The position numbers and the translations under genes are program-made. A model generated the notes under the pieces. The model was not told the origin of the DNA. It was given only the letters and a program-made list of their open reading frames with translations, and ran no database searches. Positions 31,029 to 57,447 of a stretch of 64,000 nt of DNA are shown piece by piece (position 1 is the stretch's first letter; the number at the start of each line of letters is the position of its first letter). The DNA is from Microbulbifer halophilus (GTDB lineage: Bacteria > Pseudomonadota > Gammaproteobacteria > Pseudomonadales > Cellvibrionaceae): assembly GCF_026183675.1 (NCBI RefSeq), contig NZ_JAPIVK010000003.1, forward strand, positions 6,407 through 70,406. The letters are read 5' to 3'.

Positions 31029-31155
31029 GGCCTCGGTACCGGGAGTGTCTTGCGGGACACGGACTAGGCGTCCCCCCGGTGAATACATCCCTGTAGGCTT
31101 GTCTGCGAGGTCCCTCTCGCAGACAGTCCCGCAAGACACTCCCGGTACCGAGGCC
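31029..31155. repeat. Hairpin element, copy 1 (forward)
   Basis: Perfect 30-bp inverted arms at 31029-31058 and 31126-31155 enclose a 67-base centre. The centre ends in the family-conserved block TCCCTGTAGGCTTG plus an internal hairpin TGTCTGCGAG-gtccct-CTCGCAGACA (31100-31125). It shares the centre with elements at 50003-50109 and 57215-57310. It lies between yidC and mnmE; the arms could form a very stable RNA stem. Confidence 0.9.
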
Positions 31156-31245
31156 TTCGCATCTGACCGCGGAGCGCCCCCACCCAATACCAAACCATAA
31201 AGGGGCCGCACCAGCGGCCCCTTTGCGTTGGAGTAAACTGCTTCC

Positions 31246-32622
31246 ATGTCTGAACAGAATCTCAACCGCGATACCATCGCCGCCCTCGCCACCGCCCCCG
31301 GTCGCGGCGGTATCGGCGTGATCCGATTGTCCGGCTCCGCGGCACTGGAGATCGCCCGCGGTATCTGCGGCGAGGCGGAACTGGAACCGCGCCGGGCCCA
31401 CTACCGCAGTTTCCGCCGCGGCGGGCAACTGGTGGATCGGGGCATCGCCCTCTTCTTCCCCGGGCCCAACTCCTTTACCGGCGAAGACGTGGTGGAACTG
31501 CAGGGCCACGGCGGCCCGGTGATTCTCGACCAGTTGCTGCAGTCCGCCATCGAGCTGGGCGCCCGACAGGCCCGGCCCGGCGAGTTTTCCGAGCGCGCCT
31601 TCCTCAACGACAAGATCGATCTGGCCCAGGCAGAGGCGATTGCGGACCTGATCGAGGCCGGCAGCGAGCAGGCCGCGCGCAATGCGATGCGCTCACTGCA
31701 GGGGGTATTCTCCGAAAAAATCGAAAACCTGGTGGAAGATCTCACGCATTTGCGTATCTACGTCGAAGCATCAATCGATTTTCCCGAGGAAGAAATCGAT
31801 TTTCTCGCCGACGGCAAGGTGGCGGCGGATCTCGACGCCCTGTTGGAGCAACTGGCGTCCGTAGAGGCCGAGGCGCGCCAGGGCAGCCTGATGCGCGAGG
31901 GTATGCAGGTGGCCATTGCCGGCCGCCCCAACGCTGGCAAGTCCAGCCTGCTCAATGCACTGGCCGGTCACGACGCCGCCATTGTCACCGATGTCGCCGG
32001 CACCACCCGGGATATCCTGCGCGAGCACATCCACATCGACGGCATGCCACTGCAGTTCGCCGATACCGCCGGCCTGCGCGACTCGCCGGACCGGGTGGAA
32101 CAGATCGGCATCCAGCGCGCCTGGGACGAGATCCGCAGCGCCGATCGTGTGTTGCTGCTGGTGGACGCGGAACAGGCCCACTCCCTGGACCCGGAAACCG
32201 TCTGGCCCGAATTCACCGCGCAACTGCCGGACGCGGAAAAGCTGACGCTGGTACTCAACAAGATCGACCTGACCGATTACAGCGCCGGCCTGCAGGCGCA
32301 CACCGACGGCGTGCCGGTCATCGCCATCAGCGCCAAGACCGGCGCCGGGCTGGAGGCGCTGAAGGAGCACCTGAAACAGTGCATGGGCTACAGCGGTGGC
32401 GGCGAGGGCAACTTCAGCGCCCGCCGCCGCCACCTGGACGCCCTGGCCCGGGCACGCGCCTTTATCGAACAGGGCGCCGGCCAGCTGCACGAGAGCGGCG
32501 CCGGCGAACTGCTGGCGGACGATCTGCGTCGGGCGCAGCAGGCCCTGGGTGAAATCACCGGCGAAATGACCGCCGACGAACTGCTGGGCAAGATCTTCGG
32601 CAGCTTCTGCATCGGCAAATAG
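31246..32622 (+). CDS. mnmE: tRNA uridine-5-carboxymethylaminomethyl modification GTPase MnmE
   Basis: The GTPase partner of MnmG, which together make cmnm5/mnm5 modifications at the tRNA wobble uridine. It is 458 residues. The N-terminal folate-binding domain begins [21 protein letters not shown]. The G domain has [14 protein letters not shown] (G1), DVAGTTRD (G2), DTAGLRDS (G3) and NKIDL (G4), and the C-terminus ends with the catalytic-type motif FCIGK. Here mnmG is the next gene, 0.7 kb away. Confidence 0.98.
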
Positions 32623-32729
32623 ACACTTTTTCCCTCCCTCTTACTCCACTTTTCCGGGGCGTCGCCGGGCGCCCCGAATGACTCTCCCGCCCGACGCCAA
32701 AGGAAATCCATCCGCCCCGCCGGCGGGAA
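32623..32729. other. Gap after mnmE with a hairpin
   Basis: No gene. CGGGGCG (32655-32661) and CGCCCCG (32670-32676) make a 7-bp stem; a T-rich run precedes it rather than follows it, so terminator function is doubtful. Confidence 0.45.
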
Positions 32730-33180
32730 ATCCGTCCACAGCGGCACACTTTTCCACAGCGACTACCCGCTACCCCACCAGAAGGTCACAAAAGTTGCGC
32801 ACATCAACCCACAGAGTTATCCCAAACTGGGTAGTTATGCACAGCTCCCCCTCACCCTGTTGGCGCAGACATGCACAGTGGGTGGGCCGGCGCGTCGGCC
32901 TGTGGGTAGAACCGGGGGTAAGCGGGCGCACAGCGAGCGAGTGAATTGGGTATAACCCGGAGCCTAAGCGAAAGTCGCCAAAGTTATCCCGTCCCTCCAC
33001 AGCGGCATACCGCGTTTACCCCGCGCTGAATGCAGAGGTTTGTGCCCCGCTTATAAACCGGGTAACTCTTTGATTTAAAAGGAAATTTTTTATTTATACA
33101 GGAAATCGCCGCCCCCAATAATTACAACAACAACAAAACACTACTCTCTACATACATGTATAACTTCTCTATTGATTAAT
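32730..33180. other. DnaA-box cluster and AT-rich stretch upstream of mnmG, alternative oriC candidate
   Basis: The 716-bp mnmE-mnmG gap has no gene. A perfect TTATGCACA box lies at 32835-32843, with near matches TTTTCCACA (32750-32758), TTATCCCAA (32818-32826), TTATCCCGT (32984-32992), TTGCGCACA (32795-32803) and CTACCCACA on the other strand (32901-32909). From about 33062 to 33178 the sequence becomes markedly AT-rich (TTTGATTTAAAAGG, TTTTTTATTTATAC), like a DNA-unwinding element. E. coli oriC lies in the equivalent place beside mnmG. Confidence 0.55.
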
Positions 33181-33274
33181 CCGTTTCCCGACCCGTTCGC
33201 CAGATCGGTAGAACCCCGTCCGATCCTATGCTTCCCCGAGGCGGCTTCTGCCCCCGGACAGACGCAATCAGTGT

Positions 33275-33304
33275 TTGCTGTCGAGCGCCGGCTGGCTATA
33301 AAAT
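33275..33304 (+). promoter_or_regulatory. mnmG promoter candidate
   Basis: TTGCTG (33275-33280) and TATAAAAT (33297-33304) are 16-18 bp apart depending on register and end 35 bp before the mnmG ATG. Confidence 0.55.
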
Positions 33305-33338
33305 ATGCGCCCTTTTTCGACCCCCTGCGGCGACAGCT

Positions 33339-35228
33339 ATGGATTACCCCAAAACCTACGACGTCATCGTCATCGGCGGCGGCCACGCTGGCACCGAGGC
33401 CGCGCTCGCCGCTGCGCGTATGGGATCCACCACGCTGCTGCTGACCCACAACATCGAGACTCTGGGGCAGATGTCCTGCAATCCCGCCATCGGCGGTATC
33501 GGCAAGAGCCACCTGGTCAAGGAAGTCGACGCCCTCGGCGGCGCCATGGCCGAGGCCACGGACCTGGGCGGTATCCAGTTCCGCGTGCTGAACGCCCGCA
33601 AGGGCCCGGCGGTGCGCGCCACCCGCGCCCAGGCCGACCGCGCGCTCTACCGCAGCGCCATCCGCGCGACACTCGAACACCAGCAAAACCTGGAGATTTT
33701 CCAGCAGGCCGCCGACGACCTGATCGTCGAGGGGGAGCGGGTCACCGGCGTGGTGACCAACGCCGGCGTGCGCTTTCGCGGCAAGACCGTAGTGATCACC
33801 GCCGGCACCTTCCTCGGCGGCAGGATCCATATCGGCCTCGATAGCCATTCCGGCGGCCGCGCCGGGGATGCCCCGGCCATCGCCCTGGCCGAGCGGCTGC
33901 GGGAGCTCCCGTTTCGCGTCGAGCGCCTGAAAACCGGCACGCCGCCCCGTATCGATGCGCGCTCCGTGGATTTTTCCGCCCTCGAGGAGCAGTGGGGCGA
34001 TACCCCCACCCCGGTGATGTCCTACCTCGGCGCGCGCTCTCAGCACCCGCGCCAGGCCTGCTGCTGGATTACCCACACCAACAGCGCCACCCACGAGGTG
34101 ATCCGCGAAGGCCTGGACCGCTCGCCGATGTTCTCCGGCGATATCGAGGGCGTCGGCCCGCGCTACTGCCCGTCCATCGAGGACAAGGTGCACCGCTTCG
34201 CCGACAAGAGCAGCCACCAGATTTTCGTCGAGCCGGAGGGGCTGACCACCAACGAGCTCTACCCCAACGGCATCTCCACCAGCCTGCCGTTCGACGTGCA
34301 GATCCAACTGGTGCAGTCGATCCGGGGCTTTGAGAACGCCCATATCACGCGGCCCGGCTACGCGATCGAGTACGATTTCTTCGACCCCCGCGACCTGCTG
34401 CCGTCGCTGGAGACCAAATTCATTCAGGGGCTCTATTTCGCCGGCCAGATCAACGGCACCACCGGCTACGAGGAGGCCGCCGCCCAGGGCCTGCTGGCCG
34501 GTGCCAACGCCGCACTGCGCGCGCAGGAGCGCGAGGCCTGGTGCCCGCGCCGCGACCAGGCCTACTTGGGCGTGCTGGTGGACGACCTGATCACCAGCGG
34601 TACCAGGGAGCCCTACCGCATGTTCACCAGCCGCGCCGAGTACCGGCTGCTGCTGCGCGAGGACAACGCCGACCTGCGCCTGACCGAGGTGGGCCGCGAG
34701 CTGGGGCTGGTATCCGACGAACGCTGGGCCGCCTTCAGCGAAAAGCGCGAGGCCATCGCCCGCGAGGAGCGGCGCCTGCGGGAAACCTGGGTTCACCCGA
34801 AGACGACCCAGGCCGCCGCCGTGGAGACAAAACTGCCCAAGCCGCTGGCGCGCGAATACAGCGCCATGGACCTGCTGCGCCGCCCGGAACTGAAATATGC
34901 CGATGTGGCGTCGCTGAAGGGCGAGGCCGTCGTCGACGAGCGCGTCGCCGAGCAGGTGGAAATCGCGGCCAAGTACGCCGGCTATATCGACCGCCAGCGG
35001 GACGAGATAGAGCGACTGCAGGCCTACGAGGACACGCCGATTCCGGCGGACTTCGACTACAGCAATGTGTCCGGGCTCTCCAGCGAAGTGAAACAGAAGC
35101 TCGGCGACACCCGCCCGGATACCCTGGCGCGGGCCTCGCGGGTTCCCGGGGTCACGCCCGCCGCGGTGTCGCTGCTGCTGATCCAGTTGAAAAAGCGCGG
35201 CCTGCTGACGCGTAAGAAGGCCGTTTAA
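33339..35228 (+). CDS. mnmG: tRNA uridine-5-carboxymethylaminomethyl modification enzyme MnmG (GidA)
   Basis: The FAD-dependent partner of MnmE. Starting at the ATG at 33339 gives 629 residues, the same as E. coli, with the dinucleotide-binding motif [19 protein letters not shown] near residue 9. Further family blocks are [39 protein letters not shown] and [14 protein letters not shown]. An in-frame extension to 33228 has no homologous content. rsmG follows 76 bp later. Confidence 0.98.
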
Positions 35229-35230
35229 GC

Positions 35231-35272
35231 GGTGCGCACGGGTCGTGTGATGTAGGGTGCGCCGTGCGCACC
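35231..35272. repeat. GTGCGCAC-type palindromic repeat, copy 1
   Basis: GGTGCGCAC (35231-35239) is followed by GTAGGGTGCGCCGTGCGCAC (from 35252). The 21-bp unit GTAGGGTGCGCC + GTGCGCACC recurs inverted at 60757-60777 and, with one change, at 61659-61679. It is a REP-like intergenic palindrome. Confidence 0.75.
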
Positions 35273-35304
35273 GATAACCGGGGGATCCCGCAATTTCTCT
35301 GCAG

Positions 35305-35970
35305 ATGGAACCATTCCGCCCACGCCTGCTCGAGGCCGCGGCACAGTTATCAGTTGAATTGAACGCCGAACAGCAGGACCTGCTGCTGGAATATCTGGCG
35401 ATGTTTGCGCGCTGGAATGCCGCCTACAACCTGTCTGCGGTGCGCGATCCGGCGCAGATGCTGGAGCGCCATATCGTCGACAGCCTCAGCGTGGTAAATC
35501 TCTGCGGCGGGAACGCGGACCCGCTGGTGGATGTGGGCAGCGGCGGCGGCCTGCCGGGTATTCCACTGGCGATCGTTCACCCGCAGCGGCCCGTAACCTT
35601 GCTCGACAGCAACGGCAAGAAAACGCGCTTCCTGTTCCAGGTGGCCACCACCCTGCCGCTGCCCAATGTCACCGTGGTCAACGAGCGGGTCGAGGCCTTC
35701 CGGCCCCGCTCGGGGTTCGCGGCGGTGGTCTCCCGGGCCTTCGCATCCATCGCCGACATGGTGTCCGGAAGTGAGCACTTGCTAGCGCCCGGTGGCAACT
35801 TCTATGCGATGAAGGGTAAACTACCGCGAGATGAGTTGAGCGCACTCCCAAAAGGGATTAAGGTCGAGCGGGTGCACCCCCTGTCGGTACCGGGTTGCGA
35901 CGCGGATCGCCACCTTGTCGTTCTCGGTCGCGGTGAAGACAGCGACAATCTGGCGACAGTCCCGCTATAA
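35305..35970 (+). CDS. rsmG: 16S rRNA (guanine527-N7)-methyltransferase RsmG (GidB)
   Basis: A SAM-dependent methyltransferase of 221 residues that modifies G527 of 16S rRNA. The SAM-binding motif is VDVGSGGGLPGIPLAI, preceded by the ERHIVDSLSV motif and followed by LLDSNGKKTRF and VVSRAFASIADM. It sits in its usual place between mnmG and parA. Loss of this gene is known to give low-level streptomycin resistance in other bacteria. Confidence 0.96.
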   Translation: MEPFRPRLLEAAAQLSVELNAEQQDLLLEYLAMFARWNAAYNLSAVRDPAQMLERHIVDSLSVVNLCGGNADPLVDVGSGGGLPGIPLAIVHPQRPVTLLDSNGKKTRFLFQVATTLPLPNVTVVNERVEAFRPRSGFAAVVSRAFASIADMVSGSEHLLAPGGNFYAMKGKLPRDELSALPKGIKVERVHPLSVPGCDADRHLVVLGRGEDSDNLATVPL

Positions 35971-35979
35971 CTTGGCACT

Positions 35980-36040
35980 CAGGTTTCGGGGTTCGAAATG
36001 CCTTTCGATGCCACAAGCCGAAACTGAACCTCGAAACTTG
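35980..36040. repeat. Uninterrupted copy of a dispersed palindromic repeat (interrupted copy at 49978-50140)
   Basis: CAGGTTTCGGGGTTC (35980-35994) and GAACCTCGAAACTTG (36026-36040) form an imperfect 15-bp inverted pair. The reverse complement of this block aligns over both flanks of the hairpin element at 50003-50109, including GCTTGTGGCATCGAAA, so this copy appears to be the empty version of that site. Confidence 0.75.
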
Positions 36041-36223
36041 GGTTAGAATCATTTTCGCGCCTGCGCGCCCGTCGATGCAGGCGACAATCTTTCCGAGACC
36101 TGCGCACTCCTGAACAGGAAGCCCGATTCGGGGGGAGGAGTGCCCGTTGATGCCGGCGTTTTTGCGGCGAGACCCGAAGAGCTTCCGGGAGAGCGCTGTT
36201 CGGGAAAACAAAGGACAATAACC

Positions 36224-37045
36224 TTGAGCAATATATTCGCTGTGGCCAACCAGAAAGGCGGGGTGGGCAAGACCACCACCTGCGTCAACCTGGCCGCGTC
36301 CCTGGTCGCCAGCAAGCGCCGGGTACTGCTGATCGATCTCGATCCCCAGGGCAACGCCACCATGGGCAGCGGCATCGACAAGAGCGAGCTGCAACTGTCC
36401 AGCTACGATGTGCTCGCCAGCGAGCTGCCGCCCAACAAGGCGATCGTCCCCACCTCCAGCGGCTACGACCTGATGCCCGCCAACGGAGACCTGTCCGCGG
36501 CGGAAGTGGAGCTGCTGGAGATGGACGGCCGCGAGGCGCGCTTGCGCCGCGCCCTGCGCTACCTGGACGGCGGCCACGACTATATCGTCGTCGACTGCCC
36601 GCCGTCTCTGAACATGCTGACCGTCAACGCCCTCTGCGCGGCCCACGGCGTGCTGATTCCGATGCAGTGCGAGTACTACGCCCTCGAGGGGCTGTCGGCA
36701 CTGGTCGACACCATCACCCAGATCCAGCGCGCCGCCAACCCGGAGCTCAGGATCGAGGGCATATTGCGCACCATGTACGACCCGCGCAACAGCCTTACCA
36801 ACGATGTGTCCGAGCAGCTGTCCGAGTACTTCGGCGAACGCCTCTACCGCACCTGCATTCCGCGCAATGTGCGCCTGGCCGAAGCGCCCAGCTTCGGTGT
36901 GCCGGCGCTGGAGTACGACCGACACTCCAAGGGCGCCATTGCCTACCTGGCGCTGGCCGGCGAAATGACCCGCCGCCACGCCGCCAATCCCAGCACTACC
37001 AACAGCGGTCCCGGCCAGGGCCGCCCGGTGGCGGAAGCGGTTTAA
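36224..37045 (+). CDS. parA: Chromosome partitioning ATPase ParA (Soj)
   Basis: A 273-residue deviant-Walker ATPase that drives ParB-parS segregation. I start at the TTG at 36224 (AAAGGA upstream) because the conserved protein begins MSNIFAVANQKGGVGKTTTC. The in-frame stretch back to 36140 is GC-repeat-like and lies beside a repeat. The Walker A is QKGGVGKTTT, and the A' and Walker B regions are LLIDLDPQGNAT and YIVVDCPPSLNMLT. parB begins 13 bp after the stop. Confidence 0.96.
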   Translation: MSNIFAVANQKGGVGKTTTCVNLAASLVASKRRVLLIDLDPQGNATMGSGIDKSELQLSSYDVLASELPPNKAIVPTSSGYDLMPANGDLSAAEVELLEMDGREARLRRALRYLDGGHDYIVVDCPPSLNMLTVNALCAAHGVLIPMQCEYYALEGLSALVDTITQIQRAANPELRIEGILRTMYDPRNSLTNDVSEQLSEYFGERLYRTCIPRNVRLAEAPSFGVPALEYDRHSKGAIAYLALAGEMTRRHAANPSTTNSGPGQGRPVAEAV

Positions 37046-37058
37046 GAGGTAACGAGTT

Positions 37059-37958
37059 ATGGCCGCAAAACGCAAGGCCCTGGGTAAAAACCTGTCCCAC
37101 CTGATCGGCGACAACGCCAGCGAAGCCATCGCCGTGGCCTCCGGCGACGGCGGCGGCGAATCTGTCGACGGCGAGCTGCGCGAGCTGCCGATCGAGTTCC
37201 TGCAGCGCGGCCGCTACCAGCCGCGCCGCGATTTCCCGCAGGAATCCCTGCAGGAACTGGCCGACTCCATCCGCGCCCAGGGCATCATGCAGCCGATCGT
37301 GGTGCGCCCCGTCGGCGAACACAGGTACGAGATCGTCGCCGGCGAGCGTCGCTGGCGCGCCGCGCAACTGGCCGAACTGGACCGGGTGCCGTCGCTGGTG
37401 CGCGAGGTCTCGGACGAAGCTGCCATCGCCATGGCGCTGATCGAGAATATCCAGCGCGAGGACCTGAACCCGGTGGAGGAGGCCTCGGCGTTGAAGCGGC
37501 TGCAGGACGAATTCGAGCTGACCCAGGCGGAAGTGGCCGAGGCGGTGGGCAAATCCCGCACCGCGGTGACCAACCTGTTGCGCCTGCTCAGCCTCACGGG
37601 CGAGGTTCGCACCCTCCTCGAGCGCGGCGACCTGGAAACCGGCCACGCCAAGGCCCTGTTGGGCCTCGCCGGCGACACCCAGCGTGCCGCCGCCCGCCAG
37701 GTGGTGGAGCGCGGCCTGACTGTACGCCAGACCGAGACGCTGGTGCGCCGCCTGCACCAGCAGGCGGAAAACCCGGCCCCGGCCAGGCCCAAAGAGGATC
37801 CGAATATCCGTCGCCTGAGCGAGCGCCTGTCGGAGAAAGTCGGTGTGCCGGTGGCCATCGATCACAACGACAAGGGCGTGGGGAGGCTGGTACTGCGCTA
37901 CAGCAGTCTCGATGAGCTGGACGGGATTCTCGCCCACCTGGGTTACAGCGAGGACTGA
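37059..37958 (+). CDS. parB: Chromosome partitioning protein ParB (Spo0J)
   Basis: A 299-residue CTP-dependent clamp that loads at parS. It opens KRKALGKNLSHLIG. The N-terminal CTP-binding domain has IRAQGIMQPIVVRP and the GERRWRAAQ motif. The central HTH (LTQAEVAEAVGKSRTAVTNLLRLL) recognises parS, and a short C-terminal dimerisation domain ends LDGILAHLGYSED. Two perfect parS sites lie 12-13 kb away inside recF. Confidence 0.97.
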   Translation: MAAKRKALGKNLSHLIGDNASEAIAVASGDGGGESVDGELRELPIEFLQRGRYQPRRDFPQESLQELADSIRAQGIMQPIVVRPVGEHRYEIVAGERRWRAAQLAELDRVPSLVREVSDEAAIAMALIENIQREDLNPVEEASALKRLQDEFELTQAEVAEAVGKSRTAVTNLLRLLSLTGEVRTLLERGDLETGHAKALLGLAGDTQRAAARQVVERGLTVRQTETLVRRLHQQAENPAPARPKEDPNIRRLSERLSEKVGVPVAIDHNDKGVGRLVLRYSSLDELDGILAHLGYSED

Positions 37959-38123
37959 TAGGGCCCTGCGTTGCCGCGGGGTCGATCCGGCGCGTTTCCG
38001 CTGCCCGCCCCATCGCTGCCGCACCATTGTGGCGCGCAACCTCTCGGTTAGTGAATACTTACAATGTGGTCAAACCACCGGGAAAAAACCTCGAAAATTA
38101 GATAACTTGGCGATATTTGCCGG

Positions 38124-38175
38124 TTGAACCGGCGATGCCCTTGCTCCTATAATTCGCTCGCCCAAAATTTGGGCG
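38124..38175 (+). promoter_or_regulatory. atp operon promoter region
   Basis: TTGAAC (38124-38129), an 18-bp spacer and TATAAT (38148-38153) make a good promoter about 85 bp before atpI. A 17-base palindrome CGCCCAAAATTTGGGCG (38159-38175) covers the expected transcript start and could be an operator or leader stem. Confidence 0.7.
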
Positions 38176-38238
38176 GACAGCGCGCTGCGGGCCCGAATAA
38201 ATCGGACCCGAGCAACCAGGGTCGGCTTAATCCCGCCT

Positions 38239-38601
38239 ATGCGAAAACCCCCGGTATTAGTCATTGCCGCGGTACAGCTGTTGCTGGTATCGCTCGCCGG
38301 TGCGGGTCTGCACTTTGCCGGCGAGCCGGTGACGGCGCTGTCCGTTGCGATGGGCGGCGCCCTGTGCGCGCTGCCCAATGCGTATTTCGGCCTGCGTGCC
38401 TTTCGCCACAGTGGTGCGCGCGCGGCCAACCGGGTGGTGGAGAATTTCTACCGTGGGGAAACGGGCAAGTTTGTGCTCACCCTGGCGGGCTTCGCGGCGG
38501 TATTCGCCCTGGTCCGACCGCTGAACCCGGCGGCACTGTTTATCAGCTACGGCCTCTGCGCAATGCTGCAGTGGAGCCTGGTGGCGCGCTCGGTGCGTTG
38601 A
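38239..38601 (+). CDS. atpI: ATP synthase assembly protein AtpI
   Basis: A 120-residue hydrophobic protein with four predicted membrane helices (VLVIAAVQLLLVSLAGAGL, TALSVAMGGALCALPNAYFG, FVLTLAGFAAVFALV, ALFISYGLCAMLQWSLVA). The PNAYFGLRAFR segment is typical of proteobacterial AtpI. It is the first gene of the F1Fo operon and assists c-ring assembly. Confidence 0.9.
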   Translation: MRKPPVLVIAAVQLLLVSLAGAGLHFAGEPVTALSVAMGGALCALPNAYFGLRAFRHSGARAANRVVENFYRGETGKFVLTLAGFAAVFALVRPLNPAALFISYGLCAMLQWSLVARSVR

Positions 38602-38656
38602 GCCTGGAGCTCCGCAGAGCGGCGCGGAAAAGAATTCATACTTTTACGATTGCTGA

Positions 38657-39586
<930 letters not shown>

Positions 39587-39640
39587 CAGAATTTCCGACT
39601 AACCCTTTACTCAACTTTTACAACAACTCTCAACCTTTAA

Positions 39641-39901
<261 letters not shown>

Positions 39902-39973
39902 TCGCATCGCCTAATTGCCCTTAACCCCCCCAACGTTCTTTTTATAAAGAGCTAAAGAGCAAGAGGTGTCGGT

Positions 39974-40444
39974 GTGAATATCAACCTGACTCTAATCGGC
40001 CAGTCGATTACGTTTCTGGTCTTCGTATGGTTCTGCTGGAAGTATGTCTGGCCGCCGCTGCTGGGCATCATGCAGGAACGTGAACAGAAGATCGCTACCG
40101 GCCTCGAAGAGGCCGATCGCGCGGGCAAGGACCTGGAGCTGGCGCAGCGCAAAGCCGCCGACCAGCTGAAGGAAGCCAAAGAACAGGCCGCGGAAATCAT
40201 CGATGGCGCCAACAGGCGCGCCAACCAGATCGTCGAGGAGGCCAAGCAGGCCGCGCACGCCGAGGGCGACCGCCTGAAGGCGGCGGCCCAGGCGGAGATC
40301 GAACAGGAAGTGAACCGCGCCCGGGAGCAGTTGCGCTCGCGCGTGGCGGAGCTGTCTGTGGCCGGCGCGGAGAAGATCCTGTCGGTCAATATCGATGCCA
40401 AGGCCCACGACGACCTGATCGAACAACTGGCAGCCGAGCTGTAA
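39974..40444 (+). CDS. atpF: ATP synthase Fo subunit b
   Basis: A 156-residue peripheral-stalk subunit: one N-terminal membrane helix ([20 protein letters not shown]) and a long charged coiled coil (about 35-140). It starts at GTG 39974, with AAGAGG upstream; family members commonly start [10 protein letters not shown]. This size fits the classic b-type subunit. Confidence 0.96.
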
Positions 40445-40456
40445 GCGAGGAACCCC

Positions 40457-40993: not shown

Positions 40994-41035
40994 TTTAATT
41001 TTCCGGCCGTTGCCGGAAAATGCGAGGAACTGAGC

Positions 41036-42580
<1,545 letters not shown>

Positions 42581-45600: not shown

Positions 45601-45617
45601 CCCTGGCGCTGTCGGAG

Positions 45618-47255: not shown

Positions 47256-47395
47256 TTCCGCCCTCGTCTTCTGTCCTGTTGTGATTGAGTGTAGTTTCCA
47301 CGACGGGCGATCGTGCTCGGAGCGGGGACAATCCTGTCCCGAAATCGCGCTCAACATTGTATCCTGAGCGGAGTTGGACAAAGTCGGGTCGCCGT

Positions 47396-48886: not shown

Positions 48887-48932
48887 ACAGCGCGGAATTC
48901 CCGCTCCTCTCCCCTAATCCCAGGTATTTGCC

Positions 48933-49949: not shown

Positions 49950-49977
49950 TCCGGGAGGCGCCCGGCTATCCCTACCT

Positions 49978-50140
49978 CAAATTTCGGGGTTTAGTTTCGG
50001 CGGCCGGGGCGGGGAGCACCTTTCTGGGACACGCCGTGTATACGTCCCTGTAGGCTTGTCCGCGAGGTCCCTCTCGCAGACAGTCCCAGAAAGGCGCTCC
50101 CGCCCCGGCTTGTGGCATCGAAAAGCCTTCCTAACTCCGA
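49978..50140. repeat. Dispersed repeat interrupted by hairpin element copy 2
   Basis: The left flank (49978-50001, ending AGTTTCGGC) and right flank (GCTTGTGGCATCGAAA...CCGAAACTTGAG) together reproduce the reverse complement of 35980-36040. The bases GGC or CGGC occur on both sides of the inserted hairpin, consistent with a short target duplication. Confidence 0.75.
50003..50109. repeat. Hairpin element, copy 2 (forward)
   Basis: Arms at 50003-50030 and 50083-50109 pair over about 27 bp with one mismatch and one bulge. The centre holds ACACGCCGTGTATACGTCCC, TGTAGGCTTGTC, and CGCGAGGTCCCTCTCGCAGA shared with copy 1. Confidence 0.9.
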
Positions 50141-50170
50141 AACTTGAGTTCCTACTAATCTTTCCCTAGT

Positions 50171-50319
50171 GGGCCGTGCGTAAAGTTGTGTGACAAAGGA
50201 GCCCAGCCAAAACGTTCAGATCAAGGCGAGAAAGCGCTGGAGGTTCTATTTCGAGCTTTCTCAACGCAGTGTTGGGCGTTTTGGCGCAGCGAACTGTTAC
50301 AGAACTTTGCGCACGGCCT
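50171..50319. repeat. 149-bp imperfect palindrome (MITE-like), half copy at 13575
   Basis: The left end GGGCCGTGCGTAAAGTTGTG matches the reverse complement of the right end AACTTTGCGCACGGCC. GCCAAAACG pairs with CGTTTTGGC, and GAGAAAGC pairs with GCTTTCTC at the centre (50229-50261). The right half is repeated at 13575-13652. It ends 44 bp before the FNT gene start. Confidence 0.8.
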
Positions 50320-50363
50320 ACTCGACCGGCGCCCATCCCGCCGCCGGCGGCACGGAGAGATCG

Positions 50364-51155
50364 ATGTCCAGCGAGTCCGACCGACCCAAGCGCGACCGGG
50401 AAATCCTGCAGGAGCAGATGGATGCCAGCCTGCACGAGTACGAGCGCGACAACCGCTCGCTGCTGCTGTCGTCCATCGCCGCCGGGCTGGAGATCGGCTT
50501 CAGCTTTTTCCTGATGGCGTCGCTCTATACCCACTTCCACAATCTGGTGGGAGACGACCTGCTGCACTTCATCATCTCGCTCAGCTACCCGATCGGTTTC
50601 GTGATGGTGATTATCGGCCGCGCCGACCTGTTTACTGAGCACACCACCCTGGCGATTCTGCCGGTACTGGACCGGAAGCAGAGGTGGGGGGACCTGGGCC
50701 GTATCTGGTCGGTGATCTACTGCGGCAATATTCTGGGCGCGCTGGTGTTCAGCCTGATCTTCGTCCGTTTCGTCGCCCTGAGCCAACATATCGATGGGGC
50801 GGCCTTCGATTACTACAGCGACAAGATGACCGCCGACAGCAATGCGGGCCTGTTGCTTGGCGCAATTTTTGCCGGCTGGCTGATGGGACTGCTGGGCTGG
50901 GTGGTGACTTCTTCCACCGACACCATCGGCCGTATCGTTGTGATTACCGTGATCACCTTCGTCATCGGCCTCGGTGGCCTGGCGCACTGTATTGCCGGTG
51001 CGGTGGCGATTTTCAGTGCCTGGTTCGGCACTGACAACGGCGTCGGGCCGATGGATGTGCTGCGTTTTCTCTCTCTCGCCACGGTCGGGAATGCTGTCGG
51101 CGGCTCGGTGTTTGTGGGGCTGCTGAAATACGGCTATATCGCCAATCGCCGATAA
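50364..51155 (+). CDS. Formate/nitrite transporter (FNT) family channel, YfdC-like
   Basis: A 263-residue membrane protein, started at the ATG at 50364 with GGAGAGA ten bases upstream (earlier frame overlaps a repeat). After a polar N-terminal helix it has six membrane helices with the FNT half-repeat pattern: IAAGLEIGFSFFLMASLY, IGFVMVIIGRADLFTEHT, VIYCGNILGALVFSLIF, LLGAIFAGWLMGLLGWVV, IGLGGLAHCIAG (central His) and VGNAVGGSVFVGLLKYGY. The long charged N-terminus and FTEHT motif resemble E. coli YfdC more than FocA. The substrate is unknown. Confidence 0.88.
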   Translation: MSSESDRPKRDREILQEQMDASLHEYERDNRSLLLSSIAAGLEIGFSFFLMASLYTHFHNLVGDDLLHFIISLSYPIGFVMVIIGRADLFTEHTTLAILPVLDRKQRWGDLGRIWSVIYCGNILGALVFSLIFVRFVALSQHIDGAAFDYYSDKMTADSNAGLLLGAIFAGWLMGLLGWVVTSSTDTIGRIVVITVITFVIGLGGLAHCIAGAVAIFSAWFGTDNGVGPMDVLRFLSLATVGNAVGGSVFVGLLKYGYIANRR

Positions 51156-51157
51156 AA

Positions 51158-51186
51158 AAGGCCAGCGGGCGGAGCCCGCTGGCCTT
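51158..51186. terminator. Bidirectional terminator between the FNT and amidohydrolase genes
   Basis: AAGGCCAGCGGGC (51158-51170), a GGA loop and GCCCGCTGGCCTT (51174-51186) form a perfect 13-bp stem, with an A-run upstream and T-rich sequence downstream. Confidence 0.9.
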
Positions 51187-51212
51187 CTGTTTCGCCGTTT
51201 GCCAGTGCGGCG

Positions 51213-54200
51213 TCAGTGCACCCAGTGGTGGCGCTCCTGCTTCTCCTGGATGGCCTCGGCGGTCGGCGCCGGCATGGCGCTGATCGGCAGGCGCTCGTGG
51301 AAGAACGCCAGCCGCTCGTCGGCATCCAGCTCGTTCATGCTTTCCGCTTCGAAGACACGGCCGTTGATCACCGTATAGGTGATATTTTCCGACCGGCGCA
51401 GGTTTTCCAGCGGATTGCCGTCGACGACGATCAGGTCCGCCAGCTTGCCCGGCTCGATACTGCCGATATCCCCGTCCATGCCCAGGTAGCGGGCGCCGTC
51501 GATGGTGCCGGCGCGGAAGGCCTCCCAGGGGGTGAAACCGCCCTGCTCCATCATCCACAGTTCCCAGTGGGCGCCGAGTCCCTCGCGCTGGCCGTGGGCG
51601 CCGATGTGCACGGTCACGCCGCGCTCGCGCAGCTGTTTGGCGTGCTCGGCCACGTCGAAGTGGTTGTAGTGGGCGTCCGGCGCCGTCGGCCGTCGGATGG
51701 AGCGCGGTGCGACGATAAAGTCCGGCGTGAAGGTCGTCAGGCGCTCGTTTTTCCACACCTCGGTGCGGTCGTACCAGTACTCCTCACCCCAGAGACCGCC
51801 GTAGGCGACCACGAAGGTGGGCGTGTAGCCGACCTGCGTCTGGCCCCAGAGCTGCTTCACATCGGAATAGATATTGGCGATCGGCAGCGAGTGCTCCAGG
51901 CCGGTGTGGCCGTCGACGATCATGGTCATATTGTGCTGGTATTTGCCGCCGCCCTCGGGCACCACCATCATGCCCCGCTCGCGGGCCGCCTGCAGCACCT
52001 GTTGGCGCTGGTTGCGGCGCGGCTGGTTGTAGCTTTTCACCGAGATGGCGCCCATCTCCTGCAGTCGGCCGATGTGGAAGTCGGCGTCCTCCAGCGAGTT
52101 GATCTTGGCGCGATAGCCCGGCCCCTTGGCGCCGTAGAGGATGGTGCCGGTGGAGAAGATGCGCGGCCCGGTAATGATGCCGGCCTTCTGCATTTCCGCG
52201 GCGGAGAAGATCTCGCTGCTGTCGTTGGACGGGTCGTGAATGGTGGTGACGCCGAACGCCAGGCTGGAGAAGAGGTTCCAGTTCTGCTGCGGGACAATCT
52301 CCTCGCGGCCCTGGGCGCCGTGGGCGTGGGCATCGATCAGGCCCGGCAGCACCGTCTTGCCGCTGACGTCAATGCGTTTGGCGCCCATCGGGATTTCCAC
52401 ATCGCCGGCTGCGCCCACGGCGAGGATGCGGTTGCCGCGGAACAGCACGGTGCCGTTTTCGATCACTTCGCGGGTGTTTTCCGCGTCGCGCATGGTGACC
52501 ACCCTGCCGCCGGTCAGCGCGATCAGTTTGTCGTGATTTGCGAACGGCTGGCTGAAGCTCAGGTCGCGGCCCTCGGCCACCGGCTGCGGCAGTTGCTCCG
52601 GCGCACCGGCGACAAAGTCGAAGGCTTCCGCCAGTTTGCGCTCGTAGAGTTTCGGCCCGTGGGCCCAGCCCAGGGTCTCGCTGTCGGCGGACCAGTGCAG
52701 GTTCTCGCCGGCGCGCGCCGATACCTGCGTCACCGCCACGGCCTTCGAGTCCGGGCCGATGGGCTCCGCCTTGCCGGTGTGCATGAACGGTGCCACATAG
52801 GCCTTGAAGTCCTGGGTGAAGGCGACCCAGTTGCCGTCCGGCGACAGGCGATAGGAGGTGATCTCCTCGCCGTGCAGGTGTTCGCGCTCGTCCTTGCCGT
52901 GCACATCCACGCTCTTCAGCAGTCGCTTGTTGTCGCCGTGATCGGAGAAATAGATGCGGTCGTCGGTGGCGCCGAAGTGCGGCTCGTAGCCGGATTTCAC
53001 CAGCCGGCGCTGCCAGTCGCCGTCCGCATCCGCTAGGTAGATACCCGGTTCCAGCGAGTACTCCGGGCTCATCAGGTAGCCGCCGGTAAAGCGGCGGAAG
53101 GCCACGGTGTCGCCGCTGGGGGAGAAGGACGGCTCCACGTACAGGCCCGGCTCGCGGGTGATATTCTCGCCGCGGCCGCTGCGGGCGGAGACCGCGCGCA
53201 CATGGCCCAGTTCCTCGTCGTCCCAGGTCACGTAGGTGATCTGGCGGCCGTCGCGGGACCAGCTGGGGTAGAACTCGAAGTGGTCGTCCTGGCGGGTCAG
53301 CCGGCGGCGCTCGCCGCTGTCCGCATCCTGGATGTAGATCTTGCCCAGGGCCTGGAAGGCGACCTGTTCGCCGTCCGGGGATTTCTGTGCCCAGCGGATC
53401 ATCTTCACGTCGAAGGTTTCCGGGGCCACGTCCACCGGGAAGCGCACGGCGTCGGCGACCTTCTTGTCGACGCTGATGTGTGCGGTGATCTCCTCGATAT
53501 CGCCGTCATCAGCGTCGATATGCTGGAATTTACCGTTTGACCAGACAATCAGCGATTCGCTGTCCGGCATCCAGTCGTACTGCACATAGTTGCCGTGGGA
53601 ACCGAAGGTTTCCTGCAGGTCCCGCTCCAGTTCCGTGTAGATGGGCGTCTCCAGGCCGGTGTTCAGGTTCTTCAGGAACAGCACCGTCTTGTCGTCCTGG
53701 CGGCGCACGAACGCCAGTCGCTCGCCGTCCGGCGACGGTACCGGCGCGATGGCGCCGCCGGGGCCGGAGACAAAGGTCTCCTCTTTTCCGTCCCGCAAGT
53801 CGTAGCGGTTGATGGCAAAGATCTGTTGGGTGGAATTCTTGTTGTACTCCCACACGGTGCCCGGTGTGGTGTCGATGGAATAGTAGATATAGCGGCCGTC
53901 CGGGGAGAAGGTCGGGTCGGCGATATTCTTCTGCGCGATATCGCCCCCGAGGCGCTCTTTCAGCTGGCGCCCCGTGCCGCCGCCGAAGTGATACATCCAG
54001 ATTTCGCCGGCGGGGATACTGCGGCCGGACATGAAGCCTTTGCGCGCCACCAGGGTGCGGCCGTCCGGGCTCCAGGCGGGCGAGTGCACCAGGTTTTCCT
54101 TCTCCTCGGTGAGTTGGCGCAGGTTTTCGCCATTGCGGTCCATGACCCAGATATTGTCGGCGCCGTCGCGGTCGCTGACGAAGACGATGGAGTCGCCGTC

Positions 54201-54548
54201 GGGACTGAAGCGCGGCTCCATGTTCCAGGCGATCTCGTTGGTCAGCGGTATCGCCTCGCCGCCGGAGACCGGCACCGTGTAGATATCGCCGAGCGTATCG
54301 AAGACGATTGTCTCGCCGTCGGGGCTGATATCCAGGTTGCTCCAGGTGGTCTCGTTGGTGTCGAGGCGGATGGGTTTGAATTCGTACGGCGGCTGGTTCA
54401 CCTTCCAGGATTCCGCCTTTTGAGTGTCGCCGCTCTTCTGCCCCGTTTCCGCTGCGGGTGCCGCCAGCGCGCTCAGCGGCATGGCCAGAGCCAGCGCGGA
54501 CAGCCCCAGCAGCCGGCGGCAGAGGCCGGTCTGTTTGTTGTCGATCAT
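51213..54548 (-). CDS. Exported PD40 beta-propeller / amidohydrolase fusion protein
   Basis: A 1111-residue protein. A signal peptide lies at the N-terminus (LLGLSALALAMPLSALAAPA, residues about 13-32). Residues about 60-650 form a TolB/tricorn-like propeller with repeated W-SPDG-type blades (DISPDGETIVFDTLGDIY, PRFSPDGDSIVFVSDRDG, PAWSPDGRTLVARKG, PTFSPDGRYIYYSID). From about 700 there is a metal-dependent amidohydrolase: LPGLIDAHAHG (HxH metal ligands) and the C-terminal SIEPGKLADLIVVDGNPL. Such fusions are common in proteobacteria and are thought to be periplasmic peptidase or dipeptidase-like enzymes; the substrate is unknown. Confidence 0.92.
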   Translation of the reverse strand: MIDNKQTGLCRRLLGLSALALAMPLSALAAPAAETGQKSGDTQKAESWKVNQPPYEFKPIRLDTNETTWSNLDISPDGETIVFDTLGDIYTVPVSGGEAIPLTNEIAWNMEPRFSPDGDSIVFVSDRDGADNIWVMDRNGENLRQLTEEKENLVHSPAWSPDGRTLVARKGFMSGRSIPAGEIWMYHFGGGTGRQLKERLGGDIAQKNIADPTFSPDGRYIYYSIDTTPGTVWEYNKNSTQQIFAINRYDLRDGKEETFVSGPGGAIAPVPSPDGERLAFVRRQDDKTVLFLKNLNTGLETPIYTELERDLQETFGSHGNYVQYDWMPDSESLIVWSNGKFQHIDADDGDIEEITAHISVDKKVADAVRFPVDVAPETFDVKMIRWAQKSPDGEQVAFQALGKIYIQDADSGERRRLTRQDDHFEFYPSWSRDGRQITYVTWDDEELGHVRAVSARSGRGENITREPGLYVEPSFSPSGDTVAFRRFTGGYLMSPEYSLEPGIYLADADGDWQRRLVKSGYEPHFGATDDRIYFSDHGDNKRLLKSVDVHGKDEREHLHGEEITSYRLSPDGNWVAFTQDFKAYVAPFMHTGKAEPIGPDSKAVAVTQVSARAGENLHWSADSETLGWAHGPKLYERKLAEAFDFVAGAPEQLPQPVAEGRDLSFSQPFANHDKLIALTGGRVVTMRDAENTREVIENGTVLFRGNRILAVGAAGDVEIPMGAKRIDVSGKTVLPGLIDAHAHGAQGREEIVPQQNWNLFSSLAFGVTTIHDPSNDSSEIFSAAEMQKAGIITGPRIFSTGTILYGAKGPGYRAKINSLEDADFHIGRLQEMGAISVKSYNQPRRNQRQQVLQAARERGMMVVPEGGGKYQHNMTMIVDGHTGLEHSLPIANIYSDVKQLWGQTQVGYTPTFVVAYGGLWGEEYWYDRTEVWKNERLTTFTPDFIVAPRSIRRPTAPDAHYNHFDVAEHAKQLRERGVTVHIGAHGQREGLGAHWELWMMEQGGFTPWEAFRAGTIDGARYLGMDGDIGSIEPGKLADLIVVDGNPLENLRRSENITYTVINGRVFEAESMNELDADERLAFFHERLPISAMPAPTAEAIQEKQERHHWVH

Positions 54549-54606
54549 CGGAGATTTCCCCTGCGCCGCGCCTTGTGGGCCGGCGTTCGTGCGAGTTGTT
54601 ATAAGT

Positions 54607-54615
54607 TGTGGATAA
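54607..54615. promoter_or_regulatory. Isolated perfect DnaA box upstream of the amidohydrolase gene
   Basis: TGTGGATAA (TTATCCACA on the other strand) lies 59 bp before the gene start, 26 kb from dnaA. A single box may be chance or a site of DnaA-linked regulation. Confidence 0.45.
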
Positions 54616-54728
54616 GTTGTGCAATTGATCGAATTGCGCGCCTCAAACTAACCGCTTTGGCGCGAGGCGGCAATCCGGTTGCGCCGATTGTCCGCTTGAT
54701 GCGGTAAATGGAACTGAAATGCGGAAAC

Positions 54729-55619
54729 TCACAAATAGTCCGGATCGGTGGTGAAGACCACGTCGAACTCCTGCTCGTGCACGAATTCGCCCATGCGATT
54801 GGTGAGGATTTCGCGCCATTCATCCGCCTGCTCCACCGGCGCCCCCCGGTAGGCGTCGTCCACCAGGATGCGCGCGTGCAGGTACAGGGAGCGGCCGGTC
54901 TTGGTCATGCTCAGGGACCAGCGGCGCCCGGGGATATTCTGCATGGCCCCGGCGAAGGCGCTGCGGATCTGCCGCTGTATCTTGGACGACGGTGACGCCA
55001 GCAGCACTTCCATCAGGTTGCGGTACAGGATCCGCACCGGCACGGGCAACATCACCGCCACCATGCCGATCACCATCCAGGCATCCACATAGGGCAGCTG
55101 GCCACCCAGCAGCTCGCCGAACTGCCACACGAAGGCAAAGGCGCACAGCACCACACCGCTCAGGATGGCGTCCATCAGCCAGGCGAAGGCGTCCACCTCT
55201 ATCAGCGATGAACCGGTGGCCCGCGCGATGCGGCGCAACACCAGGTGCACCGCCAGGCAGCCGAGACTGGCAACGGCCGCGTAAACCGTGGCAATCCCCG
55301 CCTCCAGTGAGCGGCCGCCCTGGTAGAGCGCGGCGATGGCTGAGGACAGTGCCATCAGCATCACGCCCAGAATCACCATGCTCTGCAGCACATTGAAGGC
55401 CGGCTCGAAACTGGCGTAGCCGAACGGAAAGCGCCGGTCGGCGCCGCGGCGGATCAGGCGCGATACACTCAACATCACCAGCGACATGGCGAAGTTGACC
55501 AGGGAAAAGACGCCATCGAGAAAGATGGCGTCGGAGCCGGTCCAGTGGGCAAAGCCGAAACCCAATGCCGCCATTGCCAGGCAGCCGATAATCGATAGCC
55601 AGAGTCCCTTTGTTTCCAC
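54729..55619 (-). CDS. Cation diffusion facilitator (CDF) family protein with altered metal site
   Basis: A 296-residue protein with six membrane helices and a C-terminal cytoplasmic domain, the CDF layout (GSDAIFLDGVFSLVNFAMSL for helix 2, FPFGYASFEPAFN after helix 2, EVDAFAWLMDAILSGVV for helix 5). In ordinary CDF zinc exporters helix 2 and helix 5 each supply an (H/D)xxxD pair. Here, aligned by eye, helix 2 has Phe and Asn and helix 5 has Ala, leaving only one Asp. It may therefore carry a different ion or have another role. It lies alone between the amidohydrolase and glmU genes. Confidence 0.85.
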   Translation of the reverse strand: METKGLWLSIIGCLAMAALGFGFAHWTGSDAIFLDGVFSLVNFAMSLVMLSVSRLIRRGADRRFPFGYASFEPAFNVLQSMVILGVMLMALSSAIAALYQGGRSLEAGIATVYAAVASLGCLAVHLVLRRIARATGSSLIEVDAFAWLMDAILSGVVLCAFAFVWQFGELLGGQLPYVDAWMVIGMVAVMLPVPVRILYRNLMEVLLASPSSKIQRQIRSAFAGAMQNIPGRRWSLSMTKTGRSLYLHARILVDDAYRGAPVEQADEWREILTNRMGEFVHEQEFDVVFTTDPDYL

Positions 55620-55755
55620 AGTGTCTTACTCCCGGTGAGGTTGGATGATTCTAACGTTTGGCAAGATGGTTTACCTGCCGCCAACTTGTGGTCCTGTCGC
55701 GAAGTCGCCACAATTCGCAGCCATTCCTGAATAAACACCGCGAAAAAGAGTTTCC

Positions 55756-57117
55756 ATGAGTATCGATGTTGTCATTCTCGCCGCGGGCAAAGGCACCCGC
55801 ATGCGCTCCGACCTGCCCAAGGTGCTGCACCCGATCGGGGGAGTGCCCATGCTGGGGCGGGTGATCGCGTCCGCCAAACAGCTGGGCGAGGTGGAGATCA
55901 CCGTGGTGATCGGCCACGGCGCCGATCTGGTGCGCGAGCAGTTTGCCGACAGCGGCGTGAAATTTGTCGAGCAGGCGGAGCAGCTGGGCACCGGGCACGC
56001 GGTCGCCCAGGCGATCCCTAACTTCCGCCGCGGCTCCACGGTACTGGTGCTCTACGGCGATGTGCCGCTGGTGAAAACCGGCACGCTGCAGTCCTTGCTG
56101 TCCGCCTCCGACAAAGGCCCCGCCCTGCTGTCGGTGGAGATGGCCAACCCGGCCGGTTACGGCCGTATCGTGCGCGACGACGCCGGCCGAGTACAGGCGA
56201 TCTGCGAGGAGAAGGACGCCGACGCGGACACCCTGGCAATCCGCGAAGTAAACACTGGCATACTCGCCGCGCCCGCCGATCTGCTGTCCCAGTGGCTGCC
56301 GGAGCTGTCCAACGACAACGCCCAGGGCGAGTACTACCTGACCGACGTGGTCGCGCGTTCGGTGAACGAAAATATCCCCGTCACCGGGGTGCGCGCCAGC
56401 GATCCGCTGGAGGTGGCCGGCGTCAACAGCCGCGCCCAGCAGGCCCAGCTGGAGCGGGCCCTGCAGCACGGCCGTGCGCTGGCGCTGATGAATGCGGGCG
56501 TGACCCTGCTGGATCCGGCGCGCCTCGATATTCGCGGCGGCCTCGAGTGCGGCACCGATGTCTCCATAGACATCAACTGCGTATTCGAGGGCGAGGTGGT
56601 ATTGGGCAACGGCGTACAGGTCGGCCCCAATTGCCTGCTGAAAAACTGCCGCCTGGCGGATGGCACTACAGTGGAGGCCAACAGCATTATCGAGGATGCC
56701 GAGGTGGGCCAGGCCTGCACCGTGGGCCCCTTCGCGCGCCTGCGCCCGGGTACGCAACTGGCGGACGGCGCCAAGGTGGGCAACTTCGTCGAGACCAAGA
56801 AGGCGCAGATCGGCCGCGGCAGCAAGGTCAACCACCTGTCTTACGTCGGCGATGCCATCGTCGGCGAGGGCGTCAATATCGGCGCCGGCACCATCACCTG
56901 TAACTACGACGGCGTCAACAAGTTCACCACCGAGATCGGCGACGGCGCCTTTATCGGCTCCAATACCGCCCTCGTCGCCCCGGTGAAGGTCGGCCCCGGT
57001 GCAACTGTCGGCGCCGGTTCCACCATCACCCGCGAAGTGAGCACTGACGAACTGGCCGTGGCCCGCGGCAGGCAGCGCAATATCAGCGGCTGGCAGCGTC
57101 CGACGAAAAAATTCTGA
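55756..57117 (+). CDS. glmU: Bifunctional UDP-GlcNAc pyrophosphorylase / glucosamine-1-phosphate acetyltransferase
   Basis: A 453-residue cytoplasmic enzyme making UDP-GlcNAc for peptidoglycan and LPS. The N-terminal uridylyltransferase opens VILAAGKGTRMRSDLPKVLH, with YGDVPLVK and ANPAGYGRIVRD. The C-terminal left-handed beta helix with hexapeptide repeats carries KKAQIGRGSKVNHLSYVGDA and INIGAGTITCNYDGVNKFTT-type acetyl-CoA site residues. Length is near E. coli GlmU (456). glmS, an earlier pathway step, lies 4.6 kb downstream. Confidence 0.98.
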   Translation: MSIDVVILAAGKGTRMRSDLPKVLHPIGGVPMLGRVIASAKQLGEVEITVVIGHGADLVREQFADSGVKFVEQAEQLGTGHAVAQAIPNFRRGSTVLVLYGDVPLVKTGTLQSLLSASDKGPALLSVEMANPAGYGRIVRDDAGRVQAICEEKDADADTLAIREVNTGILAAPADLLSQWLPELSNDNAQGEYYLTDVVARSVNENIPVTGVRASDPLEVAGVNSRAQQAQLERALQHGRALALMNAGVTLLDPARLDIRGGLECGTDVSIDINCVFEGEVVLGNGVQVGPNCLLKNCRLADGTTVEANSIIEDAEVGQACTVGPFARLRPGTQLADGAKVGNFVETKKAQIGRGSKVNHLSYVGDAIVGEGVNIGAGTITCNYDGVNKFTTEIGDGAFIGSNTALVAPVKVGPGATVGAGSTITREVSTDELAVARGRQRNISGWQRPTKKF

Positions 57118-57447
57118 GACCGTCGAGGAACCGCGGAGCTCAGTCCAACCTACATCGTTATCCGACTATGCGGATAGTTCGAAAAGAATACTAAAGCCGA
57201 TGCAAAGGCCCTGATACCGGAAGCACCTTGTGGGACTGTCAGCGAGAGGGACCTCGCTGCCAAGCCTCTAGGGATGGATTAACGGCGTGCCCCACAAGGT
57301 GCTCCCGGTAGCTGGGTCGCCCCTGAGTTGGCTACCAGACCGGGCCTGGAAACGACGAAAAATCCGGCGGCATAACCCACCCCACCAAAACAGCCTCCCG
57401 CTGCCCGTCCATTACACTTCCTCATCGGGGCCACAAGGAAACATCCG
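57118..57447. other. Gap between glmU and the E1 alpha gene
   Basis: A 330-bp stretch without a gene. It contains hairpin element copy 3, then GGTAGC...GCTACC (57307-57343), another possible stem that shares the element's last bases. No convincing promoter was recognised for the downstream operon. Confidence 0.7.
57215..57310. repeat. Hairpin element, copy 3 (reverse orientation)
   Basis: Arms at 57215-57236 and 57289-57310 pair over 22 bp with two wobble positions. In reverse complement the centre reads GCACGCCGTTAATCCATCCC, AGAGGCTTG and GCGAGGTCCCTCTCGC, matching copies 1 and 2. Confidence 0.9.

Follow-up and report, generated by a model that had tools for sequence, protein, structure and literature searches.

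A dispersed hairpin repeat of Microbulbifer halophilus as a candidate CsrA-binding RNA

A stretch of 64,000 nucleotides from the genome of Microbulbifer halophilus (assembly GCF_026183675.1, contig NZ_JAPIVK010000003.1, positions 6,407 to 70,406; hereafter, the window) carries three copies of a hairpin element, at 31029-31155 (copy 1), 50003-50109 (copy 2) and 57215-57310 (copy 3), in which the centre is conserved whereas the arms differ between copies. A prediction made earlier from the letters alone attributed this pattern either to selection on a folded RNA or DNA or to a copying mechanism that rewrites one arm from the other. Which nucleic acid would be selected to fold, and what might it bind? 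Our comparisons favour, with a probability of roughly 0.6, a high-copy repeat resembling miniature inverted-repeat transposable elements (MITEs), the working form of which would be an RNA of one strand, a transcript that would bind the global regulator CsrA.

Copy number, spread and covariation

In the genome of the window (G000, 4.66 Mb), the pattern ATCCCTGTAGGCTTG-N(2-60)-AGTCCC has 21 matches and its reversed control none, and covariance model R1 returned, among 150 candidates scored, 131 matches at E ≤ 0.01, which correspond to 115 distinct places. The covariance model and copy count proposed with the original prediction thereby rule out a set of three chance hairpins. Read from the outside inwards on the ATCCCTGTAGGCTTG strand, the repeat consists of a stem of ~29 bp ending in GGGAC/GTCCC, hairpin 1 (TACATCCCTGTA, or alternatively with CCCA and TCCA stems), a GGCT linker, hairpin 2 and the other arm; some copies, copy 1 among them, hold an extra small hairpin. 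On the complementary strand, hereafter the GGA strand, the loops of both hairpins contain GGA. Three of the 21 pattern copies (L004, L007 and L013) have a similar insert of ~36 nt in the hairpin-2 loop, with GTATTCACGGCG, which matches a portion of the repeat itself in reverse complement. Copies less than 400 bp apart are always inverted (+- or -+), with 6 such pairs in G000 and 28 in G001, another genome of the genus.

The search range suggested originally, Cellvibrionales, proved too narrow, as the core is present in many gammaproteobacterial orders. A scan with the core pattern, one genome per species, found at least 119 stretches, and the 80 listed are all gammaproteobacterial by the names in their titles. 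The carriers among the matches listed include Stenotrophomonas, Xanthomonas, Marinobacter, Rheinheimera, Methylotuvimicrobium, Alteromonas, Saccharospirillum, Sodalis, Yersinia similis and others; the core from M. rhizosphaerae (L254) is near-identical to that of G000, and one Sodalis copy (L289) appears, by eye, to have a duplicated palindrome on its two sides. In 59 of the 85 class-wide elements, complementarity of the arms extends over 13-48 bp (the remaining 26 have arm scores below 13), and the arm sequences are unrelated between genera. Model R2 (35 sequences), in which 94.5% of the cells pair and 353 cells are changed on both sides compared to 105 in shuffles, matched 55 of 274 sampled genomes of the class and 46 of 48 genomes of the genus, with at most 16 candidates scored per class genome and with genus copy counts that reach at most 94.

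The arms vary between copies yet stay complementary, as had been proposed. In 15 aligned copies, 98.0% of the cells pair, and both sides have changed in 12 of the 34 pairs. Among 148 distinct copies from two genomes, in an alignment that had been fitted to the covariance model, 97.8% of the cells pair and 1,372 are changed on both sides, compared to a shuffled mean of 428 (0 of 500 shuffles as high) and to 99-199 for slid structures; both-side change occurs at 18 of the 19 arm pairs, and 98.0% of the arm cells pair. Within the genus, the arms are constrained along their length: TT/AA (positions 7-8) and GG/CC (positions 16-17) are nearly fixed in G001, and the middle stretch is near random yet complementary. 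For instance, all four Watson-Crick pairs occur in G001 at position 12 (37, 23, 22 and 20 copies) and at position 13 (31, 27, 26 and 18), with Watson-Crick pairing in 102 of 104 copies at each. These counts use 254 of 260 copies, those with a core shorter than 85 letters being dropped, and the 260-copy set left out 27 of 115 copies from G000, 22 of 126 from G001 and 24 of 92 from G031, a third genome of the genus.

Orthologous pairs and the subtypes found at the yidC site establish that the arms change in place and jointly, though not always. We mapped 31 G000 sites to G031, the closest relative found (yidC 92%, flanks 79-95%), in which the sites of copies 1 and 2 are empty and that of copy 3 has a counterpart. 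Eleven orthologous pairs, hand-picked out of 21 pairings (#41 and #97 being the least sure), comprise 308 arm pairs, 19 of which changed on both sides, all 19 being complementary in both species; 28 others show a change on one side only. At the yidC site, where 18 of 30 loci were read (the 12 on the other strand were left out) and 6 of the 18 have a copy, five other genomes carry another subtype, the arms of which differ between genomes and match within each with few mismatches at most. Such in-place compensation would also suit maintenance at the DNA level, whereby template switching or cruciform-based correction copies arm onto arm in replication and RNA plays no role. We consider this explanation unlikely, given the fixed positions within the arms, the class-wide conservation of the loops and linker while the stems vary, and the strand asymmetry described below.

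Strand asymmetry and the GGA loops

Pairing in RNA tolerates G.U on the transcribed strand and not A.C, so the mismatches in the arms can indicate which strand is paired. In the 59 class-wide elements, G.U on the GGA strand accounts for 47 of the arm mismatches and G.U on the other strand for 7 (p = 2e-8), with 39 of other kinds; by taxon label, 18 favour the GGA strand, 3 the other, and 9 are equal. A second set of 38 elements from 25 genomes, picked by a model built on elements of the first kind and sharing at least three species with the first set (G120, G109 and G302 look shared, with 5 G.U and no A.C), yields 30 G.U on the GGA strand versus 6, plus 12 others, with 14 genomes versus 2. For the outer arm within the genus, the summed per-position counts are 181 versus 7, many of them shared by descent (180 of 185 copies used, cores below 85 letters being dropped; 34 of 115 copies from G000 and 22 of 126 from G001 were left out). 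Furthermore, the GGA strand folds more stably in 47 of the 59 elements, as it does in copies 1 and 2 of the window. The folding z-scores of copies 1, 2 and 3 are -10.2, -6.6 and -7.2, respectively, with 0 of 200 shuffles as good.

The excess of G.U on one strand points to pairing in RNA of the GGA strand, which we hold to be very probably a structured RNA. Mutation bias of transcribed DNA would act in the same direction; an effect of this size, five- to sevenfold, seems to us more than such a bias could produce. Of the two causes originally offered, selection on a folded nucleic acid is thus borne out by the covariation and narrowed towards RNA of the GGA strand (47 versus 7 and 30 versus 6), whereas rewriting of one arm from the other does not, alone, predict the asymmetry, although it is still compatible with the inner arm, discussed below.

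In both hairpins of the GGA strand, the stems vary and the loops read A-N-GGA-N. In hairpin 1 of G000, with the hairpin located by its stem pairing only, the A is present in 78 of 80 loops and the G, G and A in 80 of 80 each; the first N is G in 72, T in 3, C in 3 and A in 2, and the last is T in 52, C in 27 and G in 1. The A, G, G and A are each found in 101 of 101 loops in G001 and in 60, 58, 62 and 59 of 62 in G031; hairpin 1 was unparsed in 3 of 83 (G000), 3 of 104 (G001) and 5 of 67 (G031) copies. For hairpin 2, parsing succeeded in 48 of 61, 72 of 88 and 31 of 55 copies of the same genomes, respectively. Across the class, where its loop lies outside the scan pattern, GGA is present in 46 of the 47 parsed hairpin-2 loops, on 38 different stems; the unparsed ones often have a visible TCC and some contain inserts.

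With a fixed A and GGA and free N positions, the loops follow the ANGGAN rule of CsrA/RsmE. Selection in vitro (systematic evolution of ligands by exponential enrichment) gave for CsrA the consensus RUACARGGAUGU with an ANGGAN hexaloop, according to the available portions of PMC7652899 and PMC3791407; set against it, copy 1 reads UACAGGGAUGU and copy 2 UACAGGGACGU. The hexaloop within a hairpin, as in CsrA/RsmA sites, is found here, hairpin 1 of copy 3 being degenerate. In copy 1, the two GGA triplets are separated by 20 nt, a distance that a CsrA dimer could bridge. Because the loops match a CsrA/RsmA site, the most likely partner of the transcript is a CsrA dimer, and we regard binding of CsrA to the GGA-strand RNA as probable. 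G000 has one csrA match, which we take to be an ordinary CsrA sequence. Several GGA triplets in hairpin loops of the ANGGAN form are also a feature of CsrB/C and RsmX/Y/Z; those are single small RNA genes, whereas here a long stem encloses two such loops in a repeat dispersed through the genome.

From copy number, signs of mobility, in-place covariation, one-strand G.U, the loop consensus and the spread across the class, we infer transcription, CsrA binding and a decoy or local role as follows. The GGA strand would be made by read-through or by transcription of its own, and a stem of ~20-33 bp of largely free sequence would close the RNA around two small A-N-GGA-N hexaloop hairpins, with a conserved AGCC-type linker between them and UUCACGGCG after them. 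Together, the loops would engage a CsrA dimer, either acting as a decoy or providing a CsrA site within an untranslated region of a transcript nearby; an inverted pair would offer one loop set per strand and hence one in transcripts of either direction. A decoy role, as opposed to a local one, may account for about half of the likelihood that we accord to CsrA binding.

Several observations weigh against a CsrA-binding transcript. Hairpin 1 has a stem of only 3-4 bp and is absent from the minimum-energy fold of copies 1 and 2, and its stem has degenerated in copy 3. The GGA strand of copy 3 is the less stably folded of the two strands (-53.0 versus -60.9), and in the orthologous pairs, one-sided arm changes outnumber compensated ones (28 versus 19). 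The orientation of the repeat with respect to the flanking genes is unbiased (62 versus 62), which argues against a purely local role. Six of the 48 genus genomes have no CsrA match, and five of these carry 59-94 copies; masking may lie behind the missing matches, and the csrA of G008 enters a masked stretch. Finally, the G.U excess in the inner arm of the three genus genomes is small (54 versus 34, again summed per position). These 19 inner pairs depart very little from Watson-Crick pairing (54 A.C and 34 G.T) and show little tolerance of wobble, as would be expected of upkeep at the DNA level, which does not by itself predict an excess of G.U confined to one strand.

The number of CsrA-family matches varies within the genus, with 5-27 per genome in G003, G004, G006, G009, G010, G039, G040, G043, G048, G050 and G051 and 0-2 in the other 37. 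Ten of the 11 genomes with at least five CsrA matches have no more than 15 repeat copies, compared to 6 of the 37 others (Fisher p = 1e-5; Spearman -0.44), the statistics ignoring kinship, with copy counts that reach at most 94 and six zero CsrA counts that are maybe due to masking. The exception is G006, with 9 CsrA matches and 76 copies.

Mobility and known repeats

The original remark that no named family was known for the element is partly right, the core having a relative in Yersinia. The 168-nt YPAL/RU-2 repeat, in the Y. pestis sequence printed in Table 1b of PMC2759123 (the portion consulted), carries the core on the GGA strand, including both GGA hairpins and TTTACGGCGTC, and the Y. 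similis locus L292, which likewise contains the core pattern and the two GGA hairpins, aligns with RU-2 by eye. Like the repeat described here, YPAL is mobile and intergenic and generates target duplications (available text of PMC2229807). By contrast, YPAL has ends of the TTTGTCA type, whereas the flanks here are, by eye, GGTGGCGGC or CTCAAGTTTCGGGG, and its duplications are of 3-26 bp, with insertion at or near dyad symmetry, compared to 7 bp in the units described below. Because the outer sequence and ends differ, we treat the window copies as sharing the YPAL core and do not file them as YPAL. A YPAL-like stretch, ~76% identical to that of Y. similis, is present in 27 enterobacterial plasmid records, from Pantoea, Klebsiella, Escherichia, Citrobacter and Shigella, where it overlaps no listed gene among the matches shown, as well as in 5 of 5426 E. 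coli genomes; a plasmid search with a Microbulbifer copy gave no match.

One subtype, type B, to which copy 2 belongs, lies in units that have inverted ends CTCAAGTTTCGGGG and duplicate 7 bp of the target. The duplication is present with no more than one mismatch in 16 of 39 units (shuffled mean 0.64, maximum 5) and is exact in 8 (0.21). The units are 147-263 bp long and combine terminal inverted repeats and target duplication with the lack of a gene, as expected of MITE-like elements. These ends and duplications, the empty sites in G031 and the recent mobility of YPAL reported in the accessible part of PMC2229807 are what could be expected if a transposase or another mobility enzyme read the folded strand, recognising it by its GGA loops and linker, and if the fold were of no use to the host. 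A DNA fold alone would not, however, yield a G.U excess on one strand, and the core is common to different carriers, with type B or YPAL ends. Furthermore, no such enzyme was found: no mobility gene could be tied to the repeat by the PF01797 tally or in the four gaps of 2.4-3.0 kb between facing copies. The gaps, judged by eye as open reading frames (ORFs) without a family search and with one interval lacking its left end, contain ordinary genes and no gene-bearing parent element. RAYT-type genes do not track copy number and were rejected as the mover, as G012 has 47 matches and no PF01797, whereas G003, G004, G009 and G010 encode PF01797 yet have 1-4 matches. We therefore doubt that the fold serves transposition only.

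A long stem might alternatively matter on its own, as a transcription terminator or an mRNA-stabilising structure. The copies lie between convergent ORFs more often than between divergent ones (44 versus 18, with a crude ORF caller by which 71 of the 260 copies fall within an ORF), and the available text of PMC2229807 describes YPAL as transcribed together with upstream genes, with a possible effect on stability. A plain stem, though, has no need of GGA loops and a linker conserved throughout the class, and none of the three window copies has a T-run after its arms, which makes this explanation improbable.

Returning to CsrA binding by the GGA-strand RNA, a broader proposal can be made tentatively, and we rate it as possible rather than probable. 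A superfamily of mobile repeats, with YPAL as one branch, may spread CsrA/RsmA-binding hairpins through gammaproteobacterial genomes, at tens to more than 100 copies per genome with two loops each, acting as a dispersed CsrA sponge or rewiring the control of neighbouring transcripts; lineages might in turn acquire additional CsrA genes or shed copies of the repeat. If so, YPAL, so far a Yersinia repeat of unclear use, would gain a testable function, what may be the commonest sites would be missing from the CsrA target maps of carriers, and the activity of CsrA would depend on the number of repeat copies and on read-through. The repeat also offers a natural library, in which a single fold persists across scores of different arms in each genome and compensation in RNA could be measured. 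The G.U asymmetry on one strand and the CsrA-type loops of the class-wide core are, within the literature searched, new. YPAL is treated in PMC2267715, PMC2759123 and PMC2229807, as represented by the portions available, and appears in the corresponding portion of PMC5193452 as an annotation track only; the excerpts of PMC2759123 and PMC2229807 do not mention CsrA in connection with it. A literature search returned no paper joining the Yersinia palindromic repeat with CsrA, and neither the core as a class-wide feature, nor evidence for RNA of one strand, nor loops of the CsrA type came up in that literature, which was partly judged by title or the start of the abstract.

Comparison with other repeats and RNAs sets the element apart. 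It is a short palindromic repeat of high copy number, often in inverted pairs, similar to the REP/BIME repeats that RAYT transposases mobilise, but lacks the constant GTAG or CGTC tag given as the REP consensus in the part of PMC3733652 available; its hairpin 1 stems read TGTAGG, TGGGGG and TGGAGG. A literature search on Microbulbifer with REP gave nothing useful. With ERIC and other MITE-like repeats, type B units share the lack of coding sequence, terminal inverted repeats and target duplication; ERIC ends carry TA (PMC2229807, in the text available), a distinction drawn here by description. A whole-window scan against Rfam yielded no family at the gathering score for the element. Copy 1 alone, at a low threshold, gave weak matches, mostly to eukaryotic microRNA families, which were rejected.

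Copies in the window and neighbouring features

The coordinates and arms of the three copies agree with those given originally, and the inner arms quoted then were correct, with one A.C mismatch each in copies 2 and 3. Copy 1 (31029-31155, GGA strand -) lies between yidC and mnmE and has arms of 30 bp (31029-31058 and 31126-31155) that are 100% complementary, hairpin 1 at 31084-31095 and hairpin 2 at 31100-31125; its additional small hairpin, at ~31061-31078, is located between the arm and the centre. Copy 2 (50003-50109, GGA strand -), between genes for a patatin and a formate/nitrite transporter, has arms at 50003-50030 and 50083-50109, hairpin 1 at 50041-50052 and hairpin 2 at 50057-50082. 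It is held within a MITE-like unit (49976-50148, no strand assigned) with inverted ends CTCAAATTTCGGGG... and ...CCGAAACTTGAG, flanked by a 7-bp target duplication, TCCCTAC on the left (49969-49975) and TTCCTAC on the right (50149-50155), with one mismatch. Copy 3 (57215-57310, GGA strand +), between a glmU-like gene and an E1-dehydrogenase gene, has arms at 57215-57236 and 57289-57310, hairpin 2 at 57237-57262 and the degenerate hairpin 1 (UCUAGGGAUGGA) at 57267-57278. All flanking genes were assigned by Pfam.

Other repeats accompany these copies. The stretch at 35967-36043 is a relic that retains type B ends (CTCAGGTTTCGGGG ... CCTCGAAACTTGGG) but has no hairpin, and reads like a type B unit after loss of the long palindrome. 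REP-like palindromes of the GTAGGGTGCGCCGTGCGCACC type, at 60755-60803, 61633-61681 and also 35240-35275, represent a separate repeat family that often adjoins the hairpin element in the genus. A 50-bp repeat, 92% identical between its two copies, is found at 13607-13656 and at 50273-50322, the second just downstream of copy 2. Finally, 27189-27269 matches the Rfam family AsdA, an antisense RNA of the dnaA mRNA (58.7 bits, cut-off 52).

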